DNA from: Onthophagus taurus
Lineage: Eukaryota; Arthropoda; Insecta; Coleoptera; Scarabaeidae
Direction of reading: 5' to 3'
Assembly: GCF_036711975.1 (NCBI RefSeq)
Contig: NC_091972.1
Span: 935,001 to 999,000 of the forward strand
DNA length: 64,000 bases
Program-made: the position numbers and the translations under genes
Part shown: one piece after another, positions 9,010 to 64,000 of the stretch
Layout of the letters: every line of letters begins with the position of its first letter
How positions within the stretch are numbered: the first letter of the stretch is position 1
Notes under the pieces: generated by a model
The model's database searches: none
What the model was told of the DNA's origin: nothing
Seen by the model: the letters and a program-made list of their open reading frames with translations, nothing else

Positions 9010-9740
9010 ACATTAATTAATGTTTGTAAACAGAACTAACCTAAGGTAACATTCCTTCACGGTTTAATTGACAGTTCAAAAGAAAACTTCACGCTATGAT
9101 TGGCATTACTAATTACTAAAGAAAACTTCACGCTATAATTAATGTTTGTAAACAGAACTAACCTTACGTAACATTCCTTCACGGTTTAATTGGCATTTCA
9201 AAAGAAAACTTCACACTATGATTGGCATTACTAATTACTAAAGAAAACTTCACGCTATAATTAATGTTTGTAAACAGAACTAACCTTACCTAACATTCCT
9301 TCACGGTGTAATTGGCATTTCAAAAGAAAACTTCACGCTATAATTGGCATTACTAATTACTAAAGAAAACTTCACGCTATAATTAATGTTTGTAAACAAA
9401 ACTAACCTTACTTAACATTCCTTCACGGTGTAATTGGCATTTCAAAAGAAAACTTCACGCTATAATTGGCATTACTAATTACTAAAGAAAACTTCACGCT
9501 ATAATTAATGTTTGTAAACAAAACTAACCTTACTTAACATTCCTTCACGGTGTAATTGGCATTTCAAAAGAAAACTTCACGCTATAATTGGCATTACTAA
9601 TTACTAAAGAAAACTTCACGCTATAATTAATGTTTGTAAACAGAACTAACCTTAAGTAACATTCCTTCACGGTTTAATTGACAGTTCAAAAGAAAACTTC
9701 ACGCTATAATTAATGTTTGTAAACAAAACTAACCTTACGT
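9010..9740. repeat. ~122-bp tandem repeat, about six copies
   Basis: Units contain TTAATGTTTGTAAACA, AACATTCCTTCACGGT and two copies of GAAAACTTCACGCTAT. Successive units differ by a few bases, and the last is shortened. The array ends against a perfect 20-nt palindrome at 9741-9760. Confidence 0.8.
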
Positions 9741-10090: not shown

Positions 10091-10860
10091 TCCTACATAA
10101 AATGCAACATGTCAATATAAATTTACATTACAGTAAAACCTCGATGTCTTCCCCGTATCAATCCGTTATATTGATACGGGGAAGACAGTGTGCCTTATAG
10201 CTCAATAAAAATATACAATAATCTAGTGATGAATAACAAATAAAACTAGGCTAACACTAGACCTAGAAGTAGAAACATTCCGTTTAGCTGGGCGTCCCTT
10301 AAAACGCCTAAAGCTGAATGTTTCTAGTTCTAATGTTACTTCTAGTGACAGTGGATATCAGATATCACAATGTTGCATATTTTTATTGCACTAAAACTAG
10401 AACTAACACTAGACCTAGTTAAACCCAAACGTTTCTAGTTCTAGGTCTAGTGTTAGGTCTAGTTTTAGACTAGCACTATCACTAGAACTAACACCAGACC
10501 TAGAATCATTCGGGTTTAGCCGTTTTGAAAGACGTTCTAAATGAATTCTAAATTCCAATGTTTCTAGTTCTAGTTTTGCACTAGCACTAGAGCTAACACA
10601 AGACCTAGAACTAAAATCATTCGGGTTTAGCCCTCTTGAGAGACGTGTGGCTAAATCCGAATGTTTCCAGATCTATGTCTAGCGTTAGTTCCAGTTTTAT
10701 TTGTTATTCAGCATTAGATTGTGGTAAACTTTTATTGAACGAAAAATAGAACTAACACTAGAACTAGAAACATTCGGGTTTAGCTGTGCGTCTCTTAAGA
10801 CGGCCGAAAACTCAGGGTTGTCATAAGTACTATTAAGCTATGTTGCATTTTATGTGCACA
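10091..10860. repeat. CTAG-rich hairpin repeat, locus 1
   Basis: It is bounded by inverted 16-nt words ACATAAAATGCAACAT (10095-10110) and its complement (10840-10855). The interior is made of short words such as CTAGTTCTAGGTCTAGTGTT and their complements, with CCCGAATGTTTCTAG blocks, so the strand can fold on itself repeatedly. No coding potential. Confidence 0.7.
10146..10186. repeat. Perfect 17-bp stem-loop
   Basis: Arms 10146-10162 and 10170-10186 (GTCTTCCCCGTATCAAT and complement) are separated by 7 nt. The sequence just before it (CAGTAAAACCTCGA) resembles the ends of pogo/Tigger-type elements, so this may be a tiny pogo-derived relic. Confidence 0.6.
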
Positions 10861-11848: not shown

Positions 11849-14800
11849 GATACAGATGGGTAAAGTTTTTATAGTAAGTTATTAAGATGGTAAAGTTTAT
11901 TTTCGTTTTTCTATAATAATTTACACTGTCAATTAGCATTAATACTCTAGTGTTAATGCCAATACTCTAGTATTAATGCCAATACTCTAGTATTAATGCC
12001 AATACTCTAGTATTAATGCCAATACACTAGTATTAATGCCAATACTCTAGTATTAATGCCAATACAGATGGGTAAAGTTTTTATAGTAAGTTATTAAGAT
12101 GGTAAAGTTTATTTTCGTTTTTCTATAATAATTTACACTGTCAATTAGCATTAATACTCTAGTATTAATGCCAATACTCTAGTATTAATGCCAATACTCT
12201 AGTATTAATGCCAATACACTAGTATTAATGCCAATACTCTAGTATTAATGCCAATACAGATGGGTAAAGTTTTTATAGTAAGTTATTAAGATGGTAAAGT
12301 TTATTTTCGCTTTTCTATAATAATTTACACTGTCAATTAGCATTAATACTCTAGTATTAATGCCAATACTCTAGTATTAATGCCAATACTCTAGTGTTAA
12401 TGCCAATACTCTAGTATTAATGCCAATACACTAGTATTAATGCCAATACAGATGGGTAAAGTTTTTATAGTAAGTTATTAAGATGGTAAAGTTTATTTTC
12501 GTTTTTCTATAATAATTTACACTGTCAATTAGCATTAATACTCTAGTGTTAATGCCAATACTCTAGTATTAATGCCAATACTCTAGTATTAATGCCAATA
12601 CTCTAGTATTAATGCCAATACACTAGTATTAATGCCAATACTCTAGTATTAATGCCAATACAGATGGGTAAAGTTTTTATAGTAAGCTATTAAGATGGTA
12701 AAGTTTATTTTCGTTTTTCTATAATAATTTACACTGTCAATTAGCATTAATACTCTAGTGTTAATGCCAATACTCTAGTATTAATGCCAATACTCTAGTA
12801 TTAATGCCAATACTCTAGTATTAATGCCAATACACTAGTATTAATGCCAATACAGATGGGTAAAGTTTTTATAGTAAGTTATTAAGATGGTAAAGTTTAT
12901 TTTCGTTTTTCTATAATAATTTACACTGTCAATTAGCATTAATACTCTAGTATTAATGCCAATACTCTAGTATTAATGCCAATACTCTAGTATTAATGCC
13001 AATACACTAGTATTAATGCCAATACTCTAGTATTAATGCCAATACAGATGGGTAAAGTTTTTATAGTAAGTTATTAAGATGGTAAAGTTTATTTTCGCTT
13101 TTCTATAATAATTTACACTGTCAATTAGCATTAATACTCTAGTATTAATGCCAATACTCTAGTATTAATGCCAATACTCTAGTGTTAATGCCAATACTCT
13201 AGTATTAATGCCAATACACTAGTATTAATGCCAATACAGATGGGTAAAGTTTTTATAGTAAGTTATTAAGATGGTAAAGTTTATTTTCGTTTTTCTATAA
13301 TAATTTACACTGTCAATTAGCATTAATACTCTAGTGTTAATGCCAATACTCTAGTATTAATGCCAATACTCTAGTATTAATGCCAATACTCTAGTATTAA
13401 TGCCAATACACTAGTATTAATGCCAATACTCTAGTATTAATGCCAATACAGATGGGTAAAGTTTTTATAGTAAGCTATTAAGATGGTAAAGTTTATTTTC
13501 GTTTTTCTATAATAATTTACACTGTCAATTAGCATTAATACTCTAGTATTAATGCCAATACTCTAGTATTAATGCCAATACTCTAGTATTAATGCCAATA
13601 CACTAGTATTAATGCCAATACAGATGGGTAAAGTTTTTATAGTAAGTTATTAAGATGGTAAAGTTTATTTTCGTTTTTCTATAATAATTTACACTGTCAA
13701 TTAGCATTAATACTCTAGTATTAATGCCAATACTCTAGTATTAATGCCAATACTCTAGTATTAATGCCAATACACTAGTATTAATGCCAATACTCTAGTA
13801 TTAATGCCAATACAGATGGGTAAAGTTTTTATAGTAAGTTATTAAGCTGGTAAAGTTTATTTTCGTTTTTCTATAATAATTTACACTGTCAATTAGCATT
13901 AATACTCTAGTGTTAATGCCAATACTCTAGTATTAATGCCAATACTCTAGTATTAATGCCAATACTCTAGTATTAATGCCAATACACTAGTATTAATGCC
14001 AATACTCTAGTATTAATGCCAATACAGATGGGTAAAGTTTTTATAGTAAGCTATTAAGATGGTAAAGTTTATTTTCGTTTTTCTATAATAATTTACACTG
14101 TCAATTAGCATTAATACTCTAGTATTAATGCCAATACTCTAGTATTAATGCCAATACACTAGTATTAATGCCAATACAGATGGGTAAAGTTTTTATAGTA
14201 AGTTATTAAGATGGTAAAGTTTATTTTCGTTTTTCTATAATAATTTACACTGTCAATTAGCATTAATACTCTAGTATTAATGCCAATACTCTAGTATTAA
14301 TGCCAATACACTAGTATTAATGCCAATACAGATGGGTAAAGTTTTTATAGTAAGTTATTAAGATGGTAAAGTTTATTTTCGTTTTTCTATAATAATTTAC
14401 ACTGTCAATTAGCATTAATACTCTAGTATTAATGCCAATACTCTAGTATTAATGCCAATACACTAGTATTAATGCCAATACAGATGGGTAAAGTTTTTAT
14501 AGTAAGTTATTAAGATGGTAAAGTTTATTTTCGTTTTTCTATAATAATTTACACTGTCAATTAGCATTAATACTCTAGTATTAATGCCAATACTCTAGTA
14601 TTAATGCCAATACACTAGTATTAATGCCAATACAGATGGGTAAAGTTTTTATAGTAAGTTATTAAGATGGTAAAGTTTATTTTCGTTTTTCTATAATAAT
14701 TTACACTGTCAATTAGCATTAATACTCTAGTGTTAATGCCAATACTCTAGTATTAATGCCAATACTCTAGTATTAATGCCAATACTCTAGTATTAATGCC

Positions 14801-15885
14801 AATACACTAGTATTAATGCCAATACTCTAGTATTAATGCCAATACAGATGGGTAAAGTTTTTATAGTAAGTTATTAAGATGGTAAAGTTTATTTTCGTTT
14901 TTCTATAATAATTTACACTGTCAATTAGCATTAATACTCTAGTATTAATGCCAATACTCTAGTATTAATGCCAATACTCTAGTGTTAATGCCAATACTCT
15001 AGTATTAATGCCAATACTCTAGTATTAATGCCAATACACTAGTATTAATGCCAATACTCTAGTATTAATGCCAATACAGATGGGTAAAGTTTTTATAGTA
15101 AGTTATTAAGATGGTAAAGTTTATTTTCGTTTTTCTATAATAATTTACACTGTCAATTAGCATTAATACTCTAGTATTAATGCCAATACTCTAGTATTAA
15201 TGCCAATACTCTAGTGTTAATGCCAATACTCTAGTATTAATGCCAATACACTAGTATTAATGCCAATACACTAGTATTAATGCCAATACAGATGGGTAAA
15301 GTTTTTATAGTAAGTTATTAAGATGGTAAAGTTTATTTTCGTTTTTCTATAATAATTTACACTGTCAATTAGCATTAATACTCTAGTATTAATGCCAATA
15401 CTCTAGTATTAATGCCAATACACTAGTATTAACGCCAATGCTCTAGTATTTATGCCAATACAGATGGGTAAAGTTTTTATAGTAAGTTATTAAGATGGTA
15501 AAGTTTATTTTCGTTTTTCTATAATAATTTACACTGTCAATTAGCATTAATACTCTAGTATTAATGCCTATACTCTAGTATTAATGCCAATACTCTAGTA
15601 TTAATGCCAATACACTAGTATTAACGCCAATGCTCTAGTATTTATGCCAATACAGATGGGTAAAGTTTTTATAGTAAGTTATTAAGATGGTAAAGTTTAT
15701 TTTCGTTTTTCTATAATAATTTACACTGTCAATTAGCATTAATACTCTAGTATTAATGCCTATACTCTAGTATTAATGCCAATACTCTAGTATTAATGCC
15801 AATACTCTAGTGTTAATGCCAATACTCTAGTATTAATGCCAATACTCTAGTATTAATGCCAATACTCTAGTATTAATGCCAATTG
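11849..15885. repeat. Two-level minisatellite: 92-bp spacer plus n x 20 bp
   Basis: The array has 21 copies of a 92-bp block (starting AATACAGATGGGTAAAG), each followed by three to seven copies of a 20-bp unit (AATACTCTAGTATTAATGCC and CACT/TGTT variants). Distances between successive 92-bp blocks are 152, 172, 192, 212 or 232 bp, always 92+20n. Marker variants (CGCTTTT at about 12308 and 13096; AAGCTATTAAG at about 12687 and 13475) recur 788 bp apart, showing a third level of duplication. No coding potential. Confidence 0.95.
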
Positions 15886-18373: not shown

Positions 18374-19159
18374 TTAATGGCAGAAAGGATAATTTGGGCA
18401 ATAACTAGGATCTAAACCTGCTGGAACGTTGTTAGGTTGAGCATGTTCTGGGGCATTGTTGTATCCTTGTTGTTGATATCCAGCAGGGTTATAAGCTGGC
18501 GTTGGTTGATAAGCCATTTGGGGAGCTGGGGTTGCATCATATGATTTTGGATCATCTAAAGAAAATGAATTAAAAAATTTTATTCTGAAGAGACAGTAAA
18601 GAGTTATTTTGCGTTACCAACTGGTCCAAAAGCACCAGATTCAGCTAATCCTTCACCGCGATAATCTCCATCTCCAGTGTATTCCCCACTTAACAAAGCG
18701 TTTTCATTGTGATTTCCCGAATTATATTGATTTTGTTGTGGTTGCTGTTGATATTGTTGTGGTTGGGGTTGATATTGTTGTGGTTGAGATTGATATTGAG
18801 GTTGGGGTTGATATTGTTGTTGAGGTTGGGATTGATATTGTTGTTGAGGTTGGTATTGGGGTTGATGAGATTGATATTGTGGTTGCTGGTATTGAGGTTG
18901 GTACTGTTGATATTGAGATTGAGGTTGAGCAGGAGAATTTGGTTCAACGGCTACACTAGGATTAGTGCAATGCGGATAATTCGGACAAGCAGCTTCACTA
19001 ATTCCTGCTGGGACGGAAGAAGCTGGAGCTCCCCCAGCTAACGGACCATTCCATGCGCAATTGGCAACAGCCAAAACGCAAGCTAATGTGGTCTAAAACA
19101 ATTAAGGAATTAAATTTAAAACTATTTATAATGAAGATTCTTACCAATTTAGTGAACAT
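18374..19159 (-). CDS. CPCFC-family cuticular protein, Q/P/Y-rich (copy 1)
   Basis: This is a secreted structural protein of the exoskeleton. Three minus-strand exons (19145-19159, 18618-19092, 18374-18555) join to 223 residues. The first coding exon is only 15 nt (MFTKL). The signal peptide continues in exon 2 (TTLACVLAVANC), followed by the mature start AWNGPLAGG. The family's C-x5-C motif appears twice: CPNYPHC after PAGISEAA, and CPNYPFC at the very C-terminus after VPAGLDPSY, ending in H-stop. Between them is a long tract of QYQPQ-type repeats and then a conserved GEYTGDGDYRGEGLAESGAFG block. Two such motifs define most insect CPCFC proteins. The tandem Q/P/Y repeat is likely variable in length. 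A TATA box lies 53 nt from the ATG. Confidence 0.87.
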
Positions 19160-20030: not shown

Positions 20031-20275
20031 TCTTTCTAGTTCTAGGTCTAGTGATAGTTCTAGTTTTGCACTAGCACTATCACTAGAGCTAACACAAGAT
20101 CTAGAACTAGAAATATTCGGGTTTAGCCGTGCGTCTCTTAAGACTTCCGAAAACTCAGGGTTGTCATAAAGGGTAAATTTTCCTTTGCAAAATTACCCAA
20201 TGCCTATACTATTAAGCTATGTTGCATTTTATGTGAGATAATACAAGTGCACAGTAGTTTCGTAACTATGGTTAC
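20031..20275. repeat. CTAG-rich hairpin repeat, locus 2
   Basis: Blocks of CTAGTTCTAGGTCTAGTG and complements, then CGTGCGTCTCTTAAGAC and the terminal word TATGTTGCATTTTATGTGAG (20218-20237) shared with loci 1 and 4. The left end is truncated. Confidence 0.7.
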
Positions 20276-23292: not shown

Positions 23293-23996
23293 TTAACTAC
23301 AATAAGGATAGTTAGGGCAAGAATGAGGATCTACTCCAGCTGGAACTTGCGCGGCAGGTTGATGTTGTTGAACTGGAGCGTGATGATAACCTTGACTTGG
23401 TTGAATAGCTCGCCCTTGGTGAGAACTATGTTGATCGTAGGCTTGTGGATTATCTAAAACAGACAAACAAGTCTTATATCATGGAAAACTTTAAATTTTA
23501 TACTACTTACCAACTGGGCCAAAAGCACCAGATTCTGCTAAACCTTCACCACGATAATCACCATCTCCAGTATATTCTCCACTTAACAAAGCTTTTTCAT
23601 TACCTTGATTAACTTGATTATATTGTGGTTGATATTGAGGTTGTTGTTGAGGTTGATATTGAGGTTGGTGTTGAGGTTGATATTGTTGAGGTGGTTGATA
23701 TTGCGGTTGATTATATTGTGGTTGTTGGTATTGTTGATTATATCCTTTTACTGGTGTGTTAGGTTCAATAGCAACATTAGGATTTGAACAATCTGGGTAA
23801 TTTGGACAAGCTTCGGGGCTAATTCCTGCGGGGATTGAAGAAGCAGGTTGTCCCCCAGCTAACGGGCCGTTCCATGCTGCAGAGGCAATAGCCAAAGCGC
23901 AAGCTAATACAGCCTTAAAAAATAATAAGATATGAATCAAAAAGTAATCCAAACTATCACTGGAACACGACAATAACTCACCGATTGGATAAACAT
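23293..23996 (-). CDS. CPCFC-family cuticular protein, Q/P/Y-rich (copy 2)
   Basis: A secreted cuticle protein of 192 residues from three minus-strand exons (23982-23996, 23511-23913, 23293-23453). It has the same layout as copy 1: a 15-nt first coding exon (MFIQS), a signal peptide completed in exon 2 (AVLACALAIASA), the mature start AWNGPLAGG, and C-x5-C motifs CPNYPDC and CPNYPYC (the last followed by S-stop). The repeat tract (QYQPQ/QPQYN) is shorter than in copy 1, and the GEYTGDGDYRGEGLAESGAFG block is almost identical. The intron phases match copy 1 exactly. Copies 1 and 2 are the closer pair by repeat type. Confidence 0.88.
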
Positions 23997-24048
23997 GTTA
24001 TTTAGTTGCTACTGATTTTTGCAATGATTTAACAGACGAATTTATGTC

Positions 24049-26162: not shown

Positions 26163-27033
26163 TTAGTGACAGAATGGATAGTTGGGGCAGGAGTGACCAT
26201 CGACTCCAGCGGGAACTTGAGCTCCAGCTCCTTGGTTGTAAGCTGGAGCGGCGTTGTTCCATCCTCCGTTCCATCCGCCATTATTGTGTCCACCGTTCCA
26301 TCCTCCATCATTATTGTTCCATTGGCTTTGATCTTGGCTCACTAAGAATTACATTTTTAGAATTAAATAAATTAATTTAAAAAAAAGTTACCATCTCCGT
26401 ATGCTCCAGCTTCTTGAAGACCTTCTCCACGATAATCTCCATCTCCGGTGTATTCTCCAGCATCTAAAGCGTTATTGGGAGTATATCCTCCTTCGTTTCC
26501 TCCGTTCCATCCTCCGTTGTTGCCGCCGTTCCATGCCCCGTTGTTACCGCCGTTCCATGCTCCATTATTACCTCCGTTCCATCCTCCGTTGTGGCCGCCG
26601 TTCCATGCGCCATTGTTTCCACCATTCCATGCGCCATTGTTTCCTCCATTCCATGCACCATTGTTACCTGCGTTCCATCCACCGGCGTGAGCTCCGGCAT
26701 TTGCTTGTACAGCAACGGCTGGATTATTACAGTTGGGGAAATTTGGGCATGATTCGGGGCTCACACCAGCTGGGAATTGATGGGCTGGAACTCCACCAGC
26801 GAGTGGTCCATTCCATGCGGCGGCGGCAAAAGCCAATGAACAAGCGAATACTGCCTAAAAGATTTATAAAAAATAATCACTTTTCTTCACGAAATCCAAT
26901 TAAAACTGTAGGAACCGTTTGGAAACTGATTTAAAACTAATTAGATACCGAAGATGAAAAAACACTTGAGTAGATAAGAGTTAGGAAGAACAAAGGGTGC
27001 GTGAGTTCCTTTGCTTACCAGTTTTACAAACAT
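26163..27033 (-). CDS. CPCFC-family cuticular protein, Gly/Trp/Asn-rich (copy 3)
   Basis: A secreted cuticle protein of 218 residues from three minus-strand exons (27019-27033, 26392-26854, 26163-26341). The first coding exon is again 15 nt (MFVKL) and the signal peptide runs into exon 2 (AVFACSLAFAAA). The mature start is AWNGPLAGG, with C-x5-C motifs CPNFPNC and CPNYPFC. The variable tract is different in kind: about ten copies of a GGNNGAWN unit instead of Q/P/Y, with a few more GGWNGG units in exon 3. The GEYTGDGDYRGEGLQEAGAYG block is kept. The Trp/Gly/Asn repeat should give different sclerotisation and hydration properties; that is inference. Confidence 0.88.
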
Positions 27034-28130: not shown

Positions 28131-29756
28131 AGCAATAACCATAGCCAACCCAACCCGAATGTTTCTAGTTCTAGGTCTAGTGTTAGTTCTACTTTTCGTT
28201 CAATAAAAATATACCACAATCTAACGTTGAATAACAATTAGAAACAACTAGAAACATTCGGGCACGTTTCTCAAGACGGCTAAACCCCAATGATTCTAGT
28301 TCTAGATCTTGTGTTAGTTCTAGTGATAGTGCTAGTGCAATACTAGAACAAACACTAGACTGAGAATAAGAAACATTCGGATTTAGCCTCACGTCTCTCA
28401 AGACGGCTAAACCCGAATGATTCTAGTTCTAGGTCTTGTGTTAGTTCTAGTGATAGTGCTAGTGCAACACTAGAACAAACACTAGACTGAGAATAAGAAA
28501 CATTCGGATTTAGCCTCACGTTTCTCAAGACGGCTAAACCCGAATGATTCTAGTTCTAGGTCTTGTGTTAGTTCTAGTGATAGTGCTAGTGCAATACTAG
28601 AACAAACACTAGACTGAGAATAAGAAACATTCGGATTTAGCCTCACGTTTCTCAAGACGGCTAAACCCGAATGATTCTAGTTCTAGGTCTCGTGTTAGTT
28701 CTAGTGATAGTGCTAGTGCAATACTAGAACAAACACTAGACTGAGAATAAGAAACATTCGGATTTAGCCTCACGTCTCTCAAGACGGCTAAACCCGAATG
28801 ATTCTAGTTCTAGGTCTTGTGTTAGTTCTAGTGATAGTGCTAGTGCAATACTAGAACAAACACTAGACTGAGAACTCGAAACATTCGGATTTAGCCTCAC
28901 GTCTCTCAAGACGGCTAAACCCGAATGATTCTAGTTCTAGGTCTTGTGTTAGTTCTAGTGATAGTGCTAGTGCAATACTAGAACAAACACTAGACTGAGA
29001 ATAAGAAACATTCGGATTTAGCCTCACGTCTCTCAAGACGGCTAAACCCGAATGATTCTAGTTCTAGGTCTTGTGTTAGTTCTAGTGATAGTGCTAGTGC
29101 AACACTAGAACAAACACTAGACTGAGAATAAGAAACATTCGGATTTAGCCTCACGTTTCTCAAGACGGCTAAACCCGAATGATTCTAGTTCTAGGTCTTG
29201 TGTTAGTTCTAGTGATAGTGCTAGTGCAATACTAGAACAAACACTAGACTGAGAATAAGAAACATTCGGATTTAGACTCACGTTTCTCAAGACGGCTAAA
29301 CCCGAATGATTCTAGTTCTAGGTCTCGTGTTAGTTCTAGTGATAGTGCTAGTGCAATACTAGAACAAACACTAGACTGAGAATAAGAAACATTCGGATTT
29401 AGCCTCACGTCTCTCAAGACGGCTAAACCCGAATGATTCTAGTTCTAGGTCTTGTGTTAGTTCTAGTGATAGTGCTAGTGCAATACTAGAACAAACACTA
29501 GACTGAGAACTCGAAACATTCGGATTTAGCCTCACGTCTCTCAAGACGGCTAAACCCGAATGATTCTAGTTCTAGGTCTTGTGTTAGTTCTAGTGATAGT
29601 GCTAGTGCAATACTAGAACAAACACTAGACTGAGAATAAGAAACATTCGGATTTAGCCTCACGTCTCTCAAGACGGCTAAACCCGAATGATTCTAGTTCT
29701 AGGTCTTGTGTTAGTTCTAGTGATAGTGCTAGTGCAATACTAGAACTAACACTAGA

Positions 29757-30076
29757 CCTATACTAAGGGAAATTATTCTTGACTTCCAAGAAAAATTTAT
29801 TCTTGAATGTATTTTTTAGAAACAAGTATAAGATATTCATAAAACAAAAATATTTTTTTGTTTTAAGAACAGAAATATTATCGAATGAAGTATCTCATAT
29901 TCTTATCGCATCGAAGAATATCAATTTTTTGTATCAAAAAATTAACTATCACAAGAGATTTAAAAATAAATTGACGACATTCGAGGGTTCCTGAAGATGG
30001 TTCTACTATTGAACCGAAACCGGTAGAATTAAAAACAAATAATCCATTTTTAATAAAATTTTTAGTATTGCTCTAG
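29757..30076 (+). mobile_element. Array-embedded cassette 1 with hammerhead-like core
   Basis: An ~320-bp segment not made of the hairpin unit, repeated nearly identically twice more downstream. It has an open 71-codon stretch of low complexity with no recognisable domain. Near its right end is GAAGATGG...GAACCGAAACCGGT, resembling the long-repeat ends of Penelope-like retroelements. Confidence 0.55.
29986..30030 (+). ncRNA. Hammerhead-ribozyme-like motif, cassette 1
   Basis: CTGAAGA (29991-29997) fits the CUGANGA core. GGTTC/GAACC (29999-30003 and 30011-30015) forms stem II, with one unpaired T before it. GAAA (30016-30019) follows. ACC/GGT gives a minimal stem III, and the A at 30025 is a legal cleavage-site base. 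GGTTC (29986-29990) pairs with GAATT (30026-30030) as stem I. The very short stem III with no loop would need a dimer or be inactive. Confidence 0.45.
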
Positions 30077-30505
30077 CACTATCACTAGTGATAGTGCTAG
30101 TGCAATACTAGAACAAACACTAGACTGAGAATAAGAAACATTCGGATTTAGCCTCACGTTTCTCAAGACGGCTAAACCCGAATGATTCTAGTTCTAGGTC
30201 TCGTGTTAGTTCTAGTGATAGTGCTAGTGCAATACTAGAACAAACACTAGACTGAGAATAAGAAACATTCGGATTTAGCCTCACGTTTCTCAAGACGGCT
30301 AAACCCGAATGATTCTAGTTCTAGGTCTCGTGTTAGTTCTAGTGATAGTGCTAGTGCAATACTAGAACAAACACTAGACTGAGAATAAGAAACATTCGGA
30401 TTTAGCCTCACGTCTCTCAAGACGGCTAAACCCGAATGATTCTAGTTCTAGGTCTTGTGTTAGTTCTAGTGATAGTGCTAGTGCAATACTAGAACTAACA
30501 CTAGA

Positions 30506-30826
30506 CCTATACTAAGGGAAATTATTCTTGACTTCCAAGAAAAATTTATTCTTGAATGTATTTTTTAGAAACAAGTATAAGATATTCATAAAACAAAAAT
30601 ATTTTTTTGTTTTAAGAATAGAAATATTATCGAATGAAGTATCTCATATTCTTATCGCATCGAAGAATATCAATTTTTTGTATCAAAAAATTAACTATCA
30701 CAAGAGATTTAAAAATAAATTGACGACATTCGAGGGTTCCTGAAGATGGTTCTACTATTGAACCGAAACCGGTAGAATTAAAAACAAATAATCCATTTTT
30801 AATAAAATTTTTAGTATTGCTCTAGC
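30506..30826 (+). mobile_element. Array-embedded cassette 2
   Basis: Nearly identical to cassette 1 (one visible coding difference). It is flanked by the same hairpin words on both sides, so it was probably multiplied together with the array rather than inserted independently. Confidence 0.55.
30735..30779 (+). ncRNA. Hammerhead-ribozyme-like motif, cassette 2
   Basis: Same core, stems and cleavage triplet as in cassette 1, with CTGAAGA at 30740-30746. Confidence 0.42.
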
Positions 30827-31127
30827 ACTATCACTAGTGATAGTGCTAGTGCAATACTAGAACAAACACTAGACTGAGAATAAGAAACATTCGGATTTAG
30901 CCTCACGTTTCTCAAGACGGCTAAACCCGAATGATTCTAGTTCTAGATCTTGTGTTAGTTCTAGTGATAATGCTAGTGCAATACTAGAACAAACACTAGA
31001 CTGAGAATAAGAAACATTCGGATTTAGCCTCACGTCTCTCAAGACGGCTAAACCCGAATGATTCTAGTTCTAGATCTTGTGTTAGTTCTAGTGATAGTGC
31101 TAGTGCAATACTAGAACTAACACTAGA

Positions 31128-31448
31128 CCTACACTAAGGGAAATTATTCTTGACTTCCAAGAAAAATTTATTCTTGAATGTATTTTTTAGAAACAAGTAT
31201 AAGATATTCATAAAACAAAAATATTTTTTTGTTTTAAGAACAGAAATATTATCGAATGAAGTATCTCATATTCTTATCGCATCGAAGAATATCAATTTTT
31301 TGTATCAAAAAATTAACTATCACAAGAGATTTAAAAATAAATTGACGACATTCGAGGGTTCCTGAAGATGGTTCTACTATTGAACCGAAACCGGTAGAAT
31401 TAAAAACAAATAATCCATTTTTAATAAAATTTTTAGTATTGCTCTAGC
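31128..31448 (+). mobile_element. Array-embedded cassette 3
   Basis: Third near-identical copy, 622 bp after cassette 2. Confidence 0.55.
31357..31401 (+). ncRNA. Hammerhead-ribozyme-like motif, cassette 3
   Basis: Same motif, with CTGAAGA at 31362-31368. Confidence 0.42.
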
Positions 31449-31883
31449 ACTATCACTAGTGATAGTGCTAGTGCAATACTAGAACAAACACTAGACTGAG
31501 AATAAGAAACATTCGGATTTAGCCTCACGTCTCTCAAGACGGCTAAACCCGAATGATTCTAGTTCTAGATCTTGTGTTAGTTCTAGTGATAGTGCTAGTG
31601 CAATACTAGAACAAACACTAGACTGAGAACTCGAAACATTCGGATTTAGCCTCACGTCTCTCAAGACGGCTAAACCCGAATGTTTCTAGTTCTAGGTCTT
31701 GTGTTAGTTCTAGTGATAGTGCTAGTGCAATACTAGAACAAACACTAGACTGAGAATAAGAAACATTCGGATTTAGCCTCACGTCTCTCAAGACGGCTAA
31801 ACCCGAATGATTCTAGTTCTAGGTCTTGTGTTAGTTCTAGTGATAGTGCTAGTGCAATACTAGAACTAACACTAGACCTACAC

Positions 31884-31966
31884 TAAGGGAAATTATTCTT
31901 GACTTCCAAGAATATGATAAGCTTGTGCCAAGAGTAATAATCTTTGTTCAAGAATATATTTCCCTC
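31884..31966. repeat. Short inverted-repeat element sharing the cassette's left end
   Basis: Starts AAGGGAAATTATTCTTGAC, as the cassettes do, and ends with a near-complement (GTTCAAGAATATATTTCCCT). It may show the simple form of the element that was expanded in the cassettes. Confidence 0.45.
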
Positions 31967-32545
31967 AGTCAATAACAATATACCACAATCTAACACTGAA
32001 TAACAATTAAAACGAGAATTAATACTAGAACTAGAATCATTTGGATTTAGCCGTCTTGACAGACGCACAGCTAAGCCCGAATGGTTTTAGGTCTACTTCT
32101 AGGGATACTTTCTAGTTTTAGGTGTTAGTTCTAGTTTTAGTTCAATAAAAATATACCACAATCTAACGCTGAATCTACTAGACCTAGAACCATTCGGGTT
32201 TAGCTGTGCGTCTGTCAAGAGGGCTAAATCCAAATGATTTTAGTTCTAGCTCTTGATTTAGTTCTAGTGACAGTGCTAGTGCAATACTAAAACTAACACT
32301 AGACCTAGATCTGGAAACATTCGGATTTAGCCGCACGTCTCTCAAGACGGCTAAACCCGAATGTTTCTAGTTCTAGATCTAGTGTTAGTTCTAGTTTTAG
32401 TTCAATAAAAATATATAACACAGTGATATCTAATTCTAACGAGCGCTACCTACCACTGTCACTAGAAAAGTAGGTAGGTACGCCGTAGTTTCTATAGAAA
32501 TATATTGTTGTATATTGCATTTTCAGTGAAATTCACTGCATAGAG

Positions 32546-35544: not shown

Positions 35545-36410
35545 TGTATACACTGAATTTCACTTAAAATGCAATATACAAAAATATATTTTCATAGAAA
35601 CCAAGTGCCACCATGTCTAAATGTTTTTGGTTGTAGGTCTAATGTTAATTCTAGTGACAGTGGAAAGTAGAGTTAGTTAACATAAGATATCACTATGTTC
35701 CATATTTTTATTGAACTAAAACTAGAACTAACACAAGACCTACAACTAGAATCATTCGGGATTAGCCGTCTTGAGAGACGTGCGGCTAAGTCCGAACGTT
35801 TCTAGTTCTCGGTCTAATGTTAGTTCTAGCATTGCACTAGCACTACCACTAGAACAAGCACAAGACTTAGAACTAGAATCTTTCGGGTTTAGCCGTTTTG
35901 AAAAACGTGCGGCTAAACCCGAATGTTTCTAGTTCTAGATCTAATGTTAGTTCTAGTGACAGTGGTAGGTAGCGCTAGTTAACATAAGATATCACTATGT
36001 GCATATTTTTATTGCACTAAAACTAGAACTAACACTAGACCTAGAACTAGAAACATTCGGGTTTCTATACTTTCTAATTCTAGGTCTAGTGTTAGTTCTA
36101 GTTTTACACTAGCATTATCCATCTTGAGAGACATGAGGCTAAATCCGAATGTTTGTAGTTCTCGATATGGTGTTATTTCTAGTATTGCACTAGCACTAAC
36201 ACTAGACCTAGAACCAGAAACATTCGGGCTTAGCCGTGCGTCTCTTAAGAAGGCCGAAAAGTCAGGGTTATCATGTTTTTTTAAGCAAAACTTTTTCTTT
36301 GCAAATCTACCCAATGCTTGTGCTATTAAGCTACGTTGCATTTTATGTGAGACAGTGCAAGTGCATAGTCATTTTGTAATTGTGATTACTGCGTTCATAT
36401 ATTGCGAGTT
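35545..36410. repeat. CTAG-rich hairpin repeat, locus 4
   Basis: The left end carries GAATTTCACTTAAAATGCAA (35557-35576). The right end carries the related complement TTGCATTTTATGTGAGACAG (about 36335). The interior has the usual CTAGTTCTAGGTCTAGTG words and CCCGAATG blocks in both orientations. Confidence 0.7.
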
Positions 36411-47560: not shown

Positions 47561-48003
47561 TGTGTTAGGTTAGTAATGGAGGTTATAATATGTCAAACAT
47601 TGTCAAATTTAGGATAGGTTAAGCAGCGAAAAATCGTTAATATTTATTTATAATAAAATTTATGTAATTATTTATTTATTTATCGAATACTTTAAAAGGT
47701 TATTTACAGGTCGTAAGGGATTAACCCTTTGTGTCCCGACGGCACTTTAAAGTACCGGTAATTTTAAACTGTAGTTATCTATTCGGCGCATTTAAAGCTG
47801 TCGGTACTTTCTACTATACAAGTGTATACAAGAGAGAATCTGTATAAAAAACGTCGCAATCCGCACTGTAGGATTTTCAGGTACACTTTAAACTTATTCA
47901 TCCAGATGTGAGGTTAGAAGTTTAGTGAAAAGTGGTGCTGTTGAATTTTGTTGTTCAAAAAGGTATTTCTTTGATAAATGGTTACTAGGTGTGATTATTA
48001 CAG

Positions 48004-50030
48004 ATCATTTTAAAAAGAAAGCTTTGAGCTTTAATTTAAAATAAGTTTCATTCTTTAATTTCAATAAATACGGCTTCCAGGAATTTTTAAATTAGCATCT
48101 TTTTTGACACTCTTAGGTTATACGAAAATGTAAGTTTTATTTCAACTTTTTTTTCTCTATATTTTTACAAATCAACCCAACAATTATTATACATCATTTT
48201 AAAGAGAAAGCTTTGAGCTTTAATTTAAAATAAGTTTCATTCTTTAATTTTAATAAATACGGCTTCCAGGAATTTTTAAATTAGCACCTTTTTTGACACT
48301 CTTAGGTTATACGAAAATGTAAGTTTTATTTCAACTTTTCTTTTCTCTATATTTTTCCAATCCAACCCAACAATTATTATACATCATTTTAAAGAGAAAG
48401 CTTTGAGCTTTAATTTAAAATAAGTTTCATTTTTTAATTTCAATAAATACGGCTTCCAGGAATTTTTAAATTAGCATCTTTTTTGACACTCTTAGGTTAT
48501 ATGAAAATGTAAGTTTTATTTCAACTTTTTTTTTCTCTATATTTTTCCAATCCAACCCAACAATTATTATACATCATTTTAAAGAGAAAGCTTTGAGCTT
48601 TAATTTAAAATAAGTTTCATTCTTTAATTTCAATAAATACGGCTTCTAGGAATTTTTAAATTAGCATCTTTTTTGACACTTTTAGGTTATTCGAAAATGT
48701 AAGTTTTGTTTCAACATTTTTTTTCTCTATATTTTTTCAATCCAACCCAACAATTATTATACATCTTTTTAAAGAGAAAGCTTTGAGCTTTAATTTAAAA
48801 TAAGTTTCATTCTTTAATTTCAATAAATACGGCTTCCAGGAATTTTTAAATTAGCATCTTTTTTGACACTCTTAGGTTATACGAAAATGTAAGTTTTATT
48901 TCAACTTTTTTTTTCTCTATATTTTTCGAATCCAACCCAACAATTATTATACATCATTTTAAAGAGAAAGCTTTGAGCTTTAATTTAAAATAAGTTTCAT
49001 TCTTTAATTTCAATAAATACGGCTTCCAGGAATTTTTAAATTAGCATCTTTTTTGACACTCTTAGGTTATACGAAAATGTAAGTTTTATTTCAACTTTTT
49101 TTTTCTCTATATTTTTCCAATTCAACCCAACAATTATTATACATCATTTTAAAGAGAAAGCTTTGAGCTTTAATTTAAAATAAGTTTCACTCTTTAATTT
49201 CAATAAATACGGCTTCCAGGAATTTTTAAATTAGCATCTTTTTTGACACTCTTAGGTTATACGAAAATGTAAGTTTTATTTCAACTTTTTTTTTCTCTAT
49301 ATTTTTCCAATCCAACCCATCAATTATTATACATCATTTTAAAGAGAAAGCTTTGAGCTTTAATTTAAAATAAGTTTCATTCTTTAATTTCAATAAATAC
49401 GGCTTCCAGGAATTTTTAAATTAGCATCTTTTTTGACACTTTTAGGTTATTCGAAAATGTAAGTTTTGTTTCAACATTTTTTTTCTCTATATTTTTTCAA
49501 TCCAACCCAACAATTATTATACATCTTTTTAAAGAGAAAGCTTTGAGCTTTAATTTAAAATAAGTTTTATTCCTTATTTTCAATAAAAATGGCTTCCAGG
49601 AATTTTTAAATTAGCATCTTTTTTGGTATTCTTAGGTTATATGAAAATGTATTTTTTATTTCAAAATTTTTTAAAAATATTTTTCCAATTCTACCCAACA
49701 ATTATTATACATCATTTTAAAGAGAAAGCTTTGAGCTTTAATATAGAATACGTCTCATTCTTTAATTTCAATAAATACGGCTTCCAGGAATTTTTAAATT
49801 AGCTTCTTTTTTGATACTTTTAGGTTATACGAAAATGTTTAGTTTTAACTCAATACTCTTTTTCTCAATATTTTCTAATTCAACCCATCGATTGTTATAC
49901 ATCGATTTAAACAGAAAGCTTTAAGCTTCAATTTAAAATAAGTTTTATTTCTTAATTTCAATAAACACGGTTTCCAGGAATTTTTGAATTAGCATCTTTT
50001 TTGACATTTAGACTATGCGAAAATAGGGGG
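48004..50030. repeat. 190-bp satellite, about 11 copies
   Basis: Units start near 48004, 48193, 48383, 48573, 48763, 48953, 49143, 49333, 49523, 49711 and 49901. Each contains AAAGAGAAAGCTTTGAGC, TACGGCTTCCAGGAATTTTT and TTCTCTATATTTTT. The outer copies are the most diverged, as expected if central copies are homogenised. A variant unit (GGTTATTCGAAAATG, CTTTTTAAAG) recurs 760 bp apart, i.e. every four units. Confidence 0.93.
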
Positions 50031-58329: not shown

Positions 58330-59905
58330 CAAGTATATATACACTTGCACTGTCCCACATAAAATGTAACATAACTAAATAGTAAAGGTATTGGGTGGAA
58401 AAGGAAAAGTTTTGCTTGAAAAAGGTGGCGTCCTTATGATAACTCTGAGTTTCCGTCTTAAGAAACGCACGGCTAAACCCGAATGATTCTAGTTATTGGT
58501 CTAGTGTTAGTTCTACTCTTTGTTCAATAAAACCATACAACAATCTAGCGCTGCATAACAATTAAAACTAGAACCTAGAACTGCTTTAGACGCCGGGCTA
58601 AACCCGAATGTTGTTTGCATAGTAAAAGTGTTAGTGTAAAACTAGCACTAACACTAGACCTAGAACTAGAATCATTTGGGTTTAGCCGCACGTCTCTAAA
58701 GACGGCTAAACCCGAATGTTTCTAGTTCTAGGTGTAGTGTTAGTTCTAGTTTTACACTTGCACTGTCACTAGAACTAATATTAGACCTAGAACTAGAAAC
58801 ATTCGGGTTTTGCCGTGCGTCTCATAAGACGGCTAAACCCGAATGATTCTAGTTATTGGTCTAGTGTTAGTTCTACACTTTGTTCAATAAAACCATACAA
58901 CAATCTAGCGCTGCATAACAATTAAAACTAGAACCTAGAACTGCTTTAGACGCCGGGCTAAACCCGAATGTTTCTGCAGAGTAAAAGTGTTAGTGTAAAA
59001 CTAGCACTAACACTAGACCTAGTACTAGAATCATTTGGGTTTAGCCGCACGTCTCTAAAGACGGCTAAACCCGAATGTTTCTAGTTCTAGGTGTAGTGTT
59101 AGTTCTAGTTTTACACTTGCACTGTCACTAGAACTAATATTAGACCTAGAACTAGAAACATTCGGGTTTTGCCGTGCGTCTCATAAGACGGCTAAACCCG
59201 AATGATTCTAGTTATTGGTCTAGTATTAGTTCTACTCTTTGTTCAATAAAACCATACAACAATCTAGCGCTGCATAACAATTAAAACTAGAACTGCTTTA
59301 GACGCCGGGCTAAACCCGAATGTTTCTGCATAGTAAAAGTGTTAGTGTAAAACTAGTACTAACACTAGACCTAGAACTAGAATCATTTGGGTTTAGCCGC
59401 ACGTCTCTAAAGACGGCTAAACCCGAATGTTTCTAGTTCTAGGTGTAGTGTTAGTTCTAGTTTTACACTTGCACTGTCACTAGAACTAATATTAGACCTA
59501 GAACTAGAAACATTCGGGTTTTGCCGTGCGTCTCATAAGACGGCTAAAGCCGAATTCTACTTCGAATTCTAGCTCTTGGTCTAATGTTTGTTCTACTTTT
59601 AGTTCAATAAAAATATACAACAATCTAGCGCCGCATAACAATTAAAACTAGAACTAACACTAGACCTAGAGCTAGAAAGTTTCTGAAGGCGCACGGCTAA
59701 ACCCGAATGTTTCTAGGTATTTTATGCTAACTAGCGCTACCTACCATCTACCAGCCGTCTTAAAAGGGGTACGGCTAAACGGAATGCTTCTAGTTCTAGG
59801 TCTAGTGTTAGTTCTAGTGCTAGTGTTGGTCTACTTTTATTTGTTTTTCAGCGCTAGACTGTTGGATATTTTTATCCAGATGAGAGATGCTCCAAAAGTT
59901 TTACA
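58330..59905. repeat. CTAG-rich hairpin repeat, locus 6
   Basis: The left end carries CACTTGCACTGTCCCACATA with AAATGTAACAT (about 58340-58375), matching the ends of loci 1, 2 and 4. The interior has about three tandem units of ~360 bp (GGGTTTTGCCGTGCGTCTCA near 58803, 59164 and 59517), each built of paired hairpin words. Confidence 0.8.
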
Positions 59906-62344: not shown

Positions 62345-64000
62345 CGTTTAGTTAACTGAAAGTAGAACTAACACTAGATCTAGAACTAGAAAAAATCGGA
62401 TTTAGTTGTACATCGCTTAGGACGGTTAAGCCCAAATGATTCTTGTTCTACTATATAATCTAATCTACGAACTTTTCTAATACGTATATTTAACCTTTCA
62501 ACTTCTCCAATAAAAATATACAACAATCTAGCGCTAAATAACAATTAAAACTAGAACTAACACTAGACCTAGCACTAGAAACATTTTTTCGTGTCTAGTG
62601 TTAGTTCTAGTTTTACTGTTACTATGTAAAACTAACACTATACCTAGAACTTAAATCATTTGGGTTTAGCCGCACGTCTCTAAAGACGGCTAAACCCGAA
62701 TGATTCTAGTACTAGGTATAGTGTTAGTTCTAGTTTTACACTAGCACTGCTACTATGTAGAACTAACACTATACCTAGAACTAGAATGATTTGGGTTTAG
62801 CCGCACATCTCTAAAGACGGCTAAACCCGAATGATTCTAGTACTAGGTATAGTCTTAGTTCTAGTTTTACACTAGCACTGCTACTATGTAGAACTAACAC
62901 TATACCTAGAACTAGAATCATTTGGGTTTAGCCGCACGTCTCTAAAGACGGCTAAACCCGAATGATTCTTGTACTAGGTATGGTGTTAGTTCTAGTTTTA
63001 TACTAGCACTGCTACTATGTAGAACTAACACTATACCTAGAACTAGAATCATTTGGGTTTAGCCGCACATCTCTAAAGACGGCTAAACCCGAATGATTCT
63101 AGTACTAGGTATAGTCTTAGTTCTAGTTTTACACTAGCACTGCTACTATGTAGAACTAACACTATACCTAGAACTAGAATCATTTGAGTTTAGCCGCACG
63201 TCTCTAAAGACGGCTAAACCCGAATGATTCTAGTACTAGGTATAGTGTTAGTTCTAGTTTTACACTAACACTGATACTATGTAGAACTAACACTATACCT
63301 ACAACTAGAATCATTTGGGTTTAGCCGCACGTCTCTAAAGACGGCTAAACCCGAATGATTCTACTACTAGGTATAGTGTTAGTTCTAGTTTTACACTACC
63401 ACTGCTATTATGTAGAACTAACACTATACCTAGAACTAGAATCATTTAGGTTTAGCCGCACGTCTCTAAAGACGGCTAAACCCGAATGATTCTAGTACTA
63501 GGTATAGTGTTAGTTCTAGTTTTACACTACCACTGCTACTATGTAAAACTAACACTATACCTAGAACTAGAATCATTTGGGTTTAGCCGCACGTCTCTAA
63601 AGACGGCTAAACCCGAATGATTCTAGTACTAGGTATGGTGTTAGTTCTAGTTTTACACTAGCACTGCTACTATGTAGAACTAACACTATACCTAGAACTA
63701 GAATCATTTGGGTTTAGCCGCACGTCTCTAAAGACGGCTAAACCCGAATGATTCTTGTACTAGGTATGGTGTTAGTTCTAGTTTTACACTAGCACTGCTA
63801 CTATGTAGAACTAACACTATACCTACAACTAGAATCATTTGGGTTTAGCCGCACGCCTCTAAAGACGGCTAAACCCAAATAATTCTAGTTCTAGGTATAG
63901 TGTACTTCTAGTTTTACTCTTGCACTCTCACTAGAACTAATATTAGACCTAGAACTAGAAATATTTGGGCTTAGCCGTACATCTTTTAAGACGGCTAGAC
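62345..64000. repeat. CTAG-rich hairpin repeat, locus 7 (runs off the window)
   Basis: A tandem array of ~131-bp units (about ten, from 62640), each with GTTTAGCCGCACGTCTCTAA, AGACGGCTAAACCCGAATGA, CTAGTACTAGGTATAGTGTT and complements. This subfamily differs from locus 3 by the TACTATGTAGAAC loop. Confidence 0.88.

Follow-up and report, generated by a model that had tools for sequence, protein, structure and literature searches.

A minimal hammerhead motif of Penelope-like origin in a palindromic satellite array of Onthophagus taurus

We analysed a palindromic satellite array in a 64,000-nucleotide stretch of the beetle Onthophagus taurus (contig NC_091972.1, positions 935001-999000; hereafter the window), in which three inserted cassettes each carry a hammerhead-like motif. 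The locus is best explained, with a probability that we put at roughly 0.85, as a dispersed hairpin satellite with a trapped chimeric relic that would include a complete minimal type I hammerhead from the pseudo-long terminal repeat (pLTR) of a Penelope-like element (PLE). PLEs are already known to carry such self-cleaving motifs, and the motif in the array is of that known kind. The locus looks striking because it is the meeting point of two repeat families, one a satellite of hairpins and the other represented by a PLE fragment with a known kind of ribozyme. A preliminary description of the window had read the cassettes as hammerhead-like and had mentioned Penelope-like elements in passing; both the reading and the hint were right.

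The hammerhead motif and the cassettes that carry it

The array, delimited by repeat and unit matching and by folding (28150-32403, no strand assigned), is built from a 127-bp unit and has diverged palindromic copies of that unit at both edges. Within about these limits we found 16 full units (the reference copy counted) with 96.9-100% identity to the reference, one of them aligned over just 124 bp, together with four partial pieces of 98 bp and three of 70 bp around three interruptions. Unit matches place 11 full units and one 98-bp piece in an uninterrupted block on the plus strand (28263-29757). As the preliminary description had proposed, the unit folds as one long hairpin: its minimum free energy (MFE) is -59.1 kcal/mol against a shuffle mean of -24.9 (z -10.06), and none of 200 dinucleotide shuffles folded as well.

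The three cassettes lie on the plus strand at 29758-30084, 30507-30833, and 31129-31455, each a 327-bp gap between unit matches. Over 323 bp the first and third are identical and the second differs from both by one substitution, in keeping with the near-identity claimed earlier. Satellite units separate the cassettes; the first spacing (749 bp) exceeds the second (622 bp) by exactly 127 bp, the length of one unit, as would be expected if unequal exchange had copied a single captured insert. The three cassettes, and the motifs within them, represent one independent event, and a recent one.

Each cassette contains one minimal type I hammerhead motif on the plus strand, at 29986-30030 in cassette 1 (identified by descriptor and by comparison with the PLE family), 30735-30779 in cassette 2, and 31357-31401 in cassette 3 (both by descriptor), with predicted cuts after 30025, 30774, and 31396, respectively. 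The expected core (CTGAAGA...GAAA, at 29991, 30740, and 31362) and a legal cleavage base, here in the triplet GUA, are present in all three. The order of elements is CUGAAGA, stem II, GAAA, the palindromic arm ACCGGU, an A, and stem I. Stem I has 5 bp, two of them G-U, and stem II has 5 bp preceded by one unpaired U. Three possible stems had been described; stems I and II are there, while stem III amounts to the palindromic arm, whose pairing would be limited to 2 bp closing a 2-nt loop in the monomer and could reach 6 bp when two copies meet. A descriptor composed for this architecture after the motif had been seen matched the two strands of the window exactly three times, at the cassettes; among 100 Markov shuffles of the window, one gave a match.

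Comparisons across the genome (290.8 Mb, 33 contigs) identify the cassette, by its matches, as a chimera in which the end of a dispersed element is fused to 117 bp of a PLE pLTR. Part A (29761-29943 on the plus strand of cassette 1, and the same part of cassettes 2 and 3) is the left end of a dispersed element that starts CACTGAGGG. Its terminus is CACTGAGGGAAAT, with which all five part-A copies read begin, and to judge from this terminus the source was probably a DNA transposon. The first ~176 bp of the cassette occur at 37 other places with 91-95% identity among the best 40 of 225 candidates, the remaining three being the cassettes; among the same 40, the whole cassette was not found outside the array. 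Part B, the PLE pLTR fragment, covers 29942-30058 on the plus strand of cassette 1 and recurs at 30691-30807 and 31313-31429. At the right junction of each cassette, unit matches reveal an inverted 29-bp piece of the satellite unit (minus strand; 30060-30088, 30809-30837, and 31431-31459). Sequence comparison also identified a fourth junction on the plus strand (31878-31965), where the left border of the cassettes recurs in a short two-ended element (GGGAAATTATTCTTGA...TTCAAGAATATATTTCCC) that has no hammerhead.

Penelope-like features of part B and its relatives

Part B has matches elsewhere at 83-99% identity (47 matches among the best 40 of 101 candidates), and none of those listed extends beyond positions 3-131 of the 141-base query. 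Fifteen of the 20 loci fetched around its relatives have the sequence in both orientations. The short elements of this family (245-517 bp) consist of an inverted copy, some reduced to the outer 40-50 bp, a second copy, and then a tail of ~36 bp. The one-sided tail and 11-13 bp target site duplications were found around part-B elements at nine of 10 loci examined, with L052 as the miss, a count given with no null run. Passages of PMC3846280 describe PLEs with inverted pLTRs, a 31-bp tail at one pLTR, and 8-10 bp duplications.

A coding sequence can be tied to this family in steps. At L067 a part-B copy is followed by pieces of an open reading frame (ORF) in two frames, with the pLTR lying 5', and this ORF region is 88% identical to L068 over 480 bp. 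The L068 ORF matches RVT_1 (E 1e-5) and has a GIY-YIG-like C-terminus (PF01541, E 7e-4), both below the Pfam cut-off. The ORF of L069 (47% identical), which lies between two direct pLTRs, passes the Pfam cut-offs for both domains (RVT_1 9e-10, GIY-YIG 3.3e-5). The tie between part B and the ORF rests on the L067-L068 overlap because no single part-B copy that we read had both the pLTR and the entire ORF. Pfam found nothing above its cut-off in the N-terminal pieces of the PLE ORF, and neither of the two PLE ORFs matched PDB sequences at E<=0.01.

Three kinds of observation then agree in pointing to a PLE origin of part B, and we regard that origin as established by comparison of the copies: a reverse transcriptase and GIY-YIG ORF linked to the pLTR via L067, L068, and L069; pLTRs that are inverted or, in L069, direct, with a tail at one end; and a target duplication near 10 bp (11-13 bp at the loci given above). 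The inverted repeats of part B could also be read as those of a DNA transposon, a reading that we dropped in view of the one-sided tail, the target duplications, and the PLE ORF. A separate candidate for an autonomous element, L047, in which part-B repeats stand 5.2 kb apart, was set aside; its interior has ORF pieces like copia gag and a LINE (long interspersed nuclear element) fragment, as judged by eye with no domain search.

Two inverted PLE pLTRs, one often shortened, lie between 11-13 bp duplications at L048, L049, L050, L051, L053, L054, L055, L056, and L064. These short inverted-pLTR elements are a non-autonomous form of PLE, similar to miniature inverted-repeat transposable elements. 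L048, L049, and L051 match the descriptor with both arms, and L050, L055, L056, and L064 with a single arm; L053 and L054 match it with neither.

The motif core is conserved within the family. In 33 part-B copies (30 of them distinct), the proposed structure pairs in 93.7% of cells, compared with 6.8-61% when it is slid along the alignment. Deviations from the subfamily consensus number two in 432 cells of the core and 135 in 3078 cells outside the motif (27 copies), and the two subfamily consensuses differ at none of 16 core positions and at 17 of 114 positions outside the motif. Fisher's test gives 4e-6 for core conservation, a value to be taken as a guide only since gaps were counted and related copies were treated as independent changes. 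Leaving aside the window and L012, 22 of 31 part-B rows passed the descriptor. Cells changed on both sides of a pair numbered ten, compared with an average of 5.0 in shuffles, and none of 500 shuffles reached this count.

The same architecture, with different stems that would still pair, appears in other PLE families of this genome. A sense-strand CTGANGA was found in five of 12 fetched regions about 600 nt upstream of a conserved stretch of the PLE ORF. We split nine sequences by hand according to this architecture (about five families: three part-B sequences, three near-identical ones, L069, L077, and L079). The first three pairs of stem I are Watson-Crick in all nine (C-G or U-A, C-G or U-A, and G-C or U-A), stem II is paired, by several pair types, in 42 of 45 cells, and the arm is palindromic in every case (ACCGGU, AUAU, or AGCU); the arm length of 4 or 6 was picked by hand, a choice that leans toward palindromes. 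A PLE-type descriptor then identified 18 distinct motifs in the window and 56 loci (220 kb), which reduce to 12 by stem and arm, three of the 12 being part-B variants. No match occurred in 30 second-order Markov shuffles of the 220 kb; the descriptor itself demands pairing stems and a palindromic arm, and many of the 56 loci had been chosen as PLE-bearing. The descriptor permits 0, 1, or 2 unpaired bases between CUGANGA and stem II, and all 18 motifs have exactly one, an A or a U.

The 18 motifs come from the window cassettes and from L007, L042, L043, L047-L051, L055, L056, L058-L067, L069-L073, and L077. Extra hammerhead-like motifs stand on the minus strands of L050 (position 2511 of that strand) and L043 (position 5530), with arms ACTAGT and ACGT. 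Because other PLEs have this architecture with different, still-pairing stems, we take the array motif to be the known minimal PLE hammerhead, which reads stem I, CUGANGA, a single unpaired base (A or U), stem II, GAAA, a palindromic arm standing where stem III would be, and the cleaved base.

Strength of the assignment and alternative readings

Several observations weigh against a PLE hammerhead in the array. The folding stability of the monomer motif is ordinary (z 0.16), and pairing of stems I and II yields -6.4 kcal/mol compared with an MFE of -9.8, the MFE fold occupying the core bases CUG. Rfam hammerhead models had no match in the window at gathering thresholds, and none at E<=10 in 4.7 kb and in 116 bp around the motif. 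The textbook hammerhead differs from the motif in the single unpaired base between CUGANGA and stem II. Within the part-B family the evidence for covariation is thin: one stem II pair is changed on both sides, equal to the shuffles (1.0 on average), and the covariation score is 0.082 compared with a shuffled mean of 0.063, yet sliding the structure by -1 gives 0.083. The subfamily consensuses differ at seven of the 30 motif positions outside the core. Nine of the 31 part-B rows fail the descriptor, among them L052-L054 and L057/L067 (the ORF-linked copy), which are short of one stem I base. On the coding side, the GIY-YIG match came only from scans of the isolated C-terminal piece, and whole ORFs list RVT_1 only. 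Among the other PLE ORFs, seven of the 12 upstream regions had no sense-strand CTGANGA, although one of them, L072, has an opposite-strand motif, and the PLE-type descriptor rejects L079, where stem II contains a mismatch. Finally, passages of PMC11167929 report that the hammerhead of PAc (Poseidon of Anolis carolinensis) cleaved only with protein and that hammerhead mutants left insertion unaffected.

The covariance-model check suggested in the preliminary description thus came back negative, but Rfam also lists no hammerhead for two PLE pLTRs, those of L069 (with an 864-aa open frame) and L048 (from the part-B family). As Rfam is silent on those two PLE pLTRs too, its negative result cannot separate PLE-type hammerheads from non-hammerheads. 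The array motif falls outside the canonical type I hammerhead of Rfam (RF00163), having neither a covariance-model match nor a closed stem III in the monomer. What it has is the make-up of the minimal PLE type: a CUGANGA and GAAA core, stems I and II, and a stem III reduced to the palindrome ACCGGU, which would pair between copies.

In a PLE, going by the published reviews, two motifs would meet, their palindromic arms would pair to form stem III, and the RNA would be cut after H17. In the array the hammerhead is most likely a passenger. A PLE fragment most likely became trapped in the satellite and was then multiplied along with it by unequal exchange. A plus-strand transcript of the array would have three identical copies, and it is conceivable from the layout that two of them could pair and cut, with spacers of 749 and 622 nt. 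PLE copies lie within this satellite at three of the 20 PLE loci (directly at L048 and L054, and within about 80 bp at L052), so it is not exceptional for this satellite to capture a PLE. The combination of satellite and hammerhead, which had been singled out as unusual, looks like ordinary repeat turnover.

The alternative that survives best, improbable as we judge it, is a satellite punctuated by ribozymes, in which the hammerheads of neighbouring cassettes would cut the array RNA into hairpin chains of 749 and 622 nt for small-RNA or heterochromatin pathways. It would account for three identical motifs arranged in tandem on one strand with hairpin units between them, and the tandem layout with palindromic arms is what dimeric hammerheads need according to passages of PMC6466107. 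The whole cassette, however, is confined to this array among the candidates compared, the copies are too alike to reveal selection, and at 31878-31965 the cassettes' left border recurs without the motif. The more specific claim that the array works, with neighbouring cassettes pairing via ACCGGU into double hammerheads that cut the RNA to those defined lengths, seems to us more improbable still; if true, the PLE ribozyme would have become an element that processes satellite RNA. The purpose first proposed for the locus, the making of discrete structured or double-stranded RNAs, found no support: the cassette occurs only here among those candidates, it reflects one recent event, and the satellite unit is common elsewhere.

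Chance resemblance, in which CUGANGA and GAAA would fall within an AT-rich repeat that holds no ribozyme, is lower again in our estimate. The ordinary folding energy, the lack of an Rfam match, and the reduction of three matches to one independent event count in its favour. Against it stand the single descriptor match in 100 shuffles of the window, the conserved core, and the recurrence of the architecture in other PLE pLTRs with different pairing stems. Least credible of all is that the cassette is the monomer of a non-LTR retrozyme array: passages of PMC7229834 describe metazoan retrozymes as tandem repeats of 150-450 bp with type I hammerheads and circular RNA intermediates, and the cassettes are tandem, AT-rich, hammerhead-bearing, and within that size range, but their spacings of 749 and 622 bp are not a single monomer length, the cassette combines pieces of two other mobile elements, and the missing closed stem III is PLE-like rather than that of a canonical retrozyme.

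The satellite in its surroundings and known systems

The satellite unit is widespread. A first look gave 1173 candidates, the best 40 of which were scored and yielded 305 matches, on at least nine contigs among the matches listed; the 16 loci fetched around satellite matches were arrays or short runs. Satellite copies on a 2.7-Mb contig (C4, 1948544-2509844) recur in large segments, and loci L035, L045, and L046 on that contig have about 99% identity over 4.7-5.1 kb, which suggests segmental duplication. Rfam at E<=10 gave 67 matches on the array; every one was to a microRNA precursor model, fell on the hairpin unit or its junctions, and scored below the gathering threshold, and we set them aside, attributing them to the unit being a long hairpin.

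By eye, diverged palindromic repeats elsewhere in the window (10800-10820, 20130-20160, 36230-36280, and 58420-58460) end near a common stretch like AACTCAGGGTTGTCAT, inverted at 58420, possibly marking where the mobile element responsible for dispersing the hairpin satellite ends. Another palindromic array, built from a 131-bp unit, occupies 62615-63997 and reaches the right end of the window. Further tandem arrays lie at 9014-9711 (122-bp unit, 5.7 copies), 11961-15883 (20-bp unit nested in periods of 152-232 bp), and 47994-50024 (190-bp unit, 10.7 copies). The satellite array begins ~1.3 kb upstream of an ORF (26372-26854) with a match to the cuticle protein family CPCFC, which the ORFs at 23503-23997 and 18604-19092 resemble by eye; all three ORFs are on the minus strand.

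Capture of a PLE offers a concrete example of how satellites that carry ribozymes could originate. It illustrates a route for ribozyme motifs into satellite DNA, whereby PLE copies insert into a satellite, undergo rearrangement, and are then copied with it. The Rfam hammerhead models gave no match for the PLE variants tried, while a simple descriptor sets such motifs apart from shuffled sequence, and one genome supplied several PLE hammerhead variants.

Minimal PLE hammerheads are reportedly the subject of work by Cervera and de la Pena in 2014 and by Lunse et al. in 2017. Passages of three papers (PMC7761336, PMC6155905, and PMC6466107) describe PLE pLTRs that carry minimal type I hammerheads without helix III and may cut as dimers, and reviews, PMC6466107 among them, state in the relevant passages that dimeric hammerheads require a stem III palindrome and tandem copies. 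The array motif agrees with those accounts in its core, stems I and II, lack of a proper stem III, palindromic arm, and pLTR position; it differs in being a fragment outside any PLE and inside a satellite array, and possibly also in the single unpaired A or U after CUGANGA seen in our 18 motifs. In our limited literature collection, no publication joined Penelope, hammerhead, satellite, and beetle.

For PAc, passages of PMC11167929 describe an ORF that starts at stem II; C3 and G8 lie ahead of the start codon, and the cut falls 26 bp downstream of it. In the array motif C3 and G8 likewise precede an ATG (CTGAAG-ATG), with 26 nt to the cut after GTA; the PAc ORF begins at that ATG, whereas the frame in the array is open for nine codons only. 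As far as passages of PMC3846280 describe them, the Penelope elements of Adineta vaga resemble the part-B elements in having inverted pLTRs, a tail (31 bp) at one pLTR, target site duplications (8-10 bp), and unrelated DNA captured between pLTRs; the part-B elements differ in being short inverted pairs of 245-517 bp with duplications of 11-13 bp. Among satellites, pDo500 of Dolichopoda cave crickets is also an insect satellite DNA with a hammerhead whose core is more conserved than the rest, but PMC2837043 places the ribozyme in every repeat, whereas the array here has three inserts between hairpin units. In dyad-symmetric beetle satellites such as that of Tribolium madens, the symmetry described in PMC13081366 extends over tens of kilobases, whereas here each 127-bp unit is itself palindromic.

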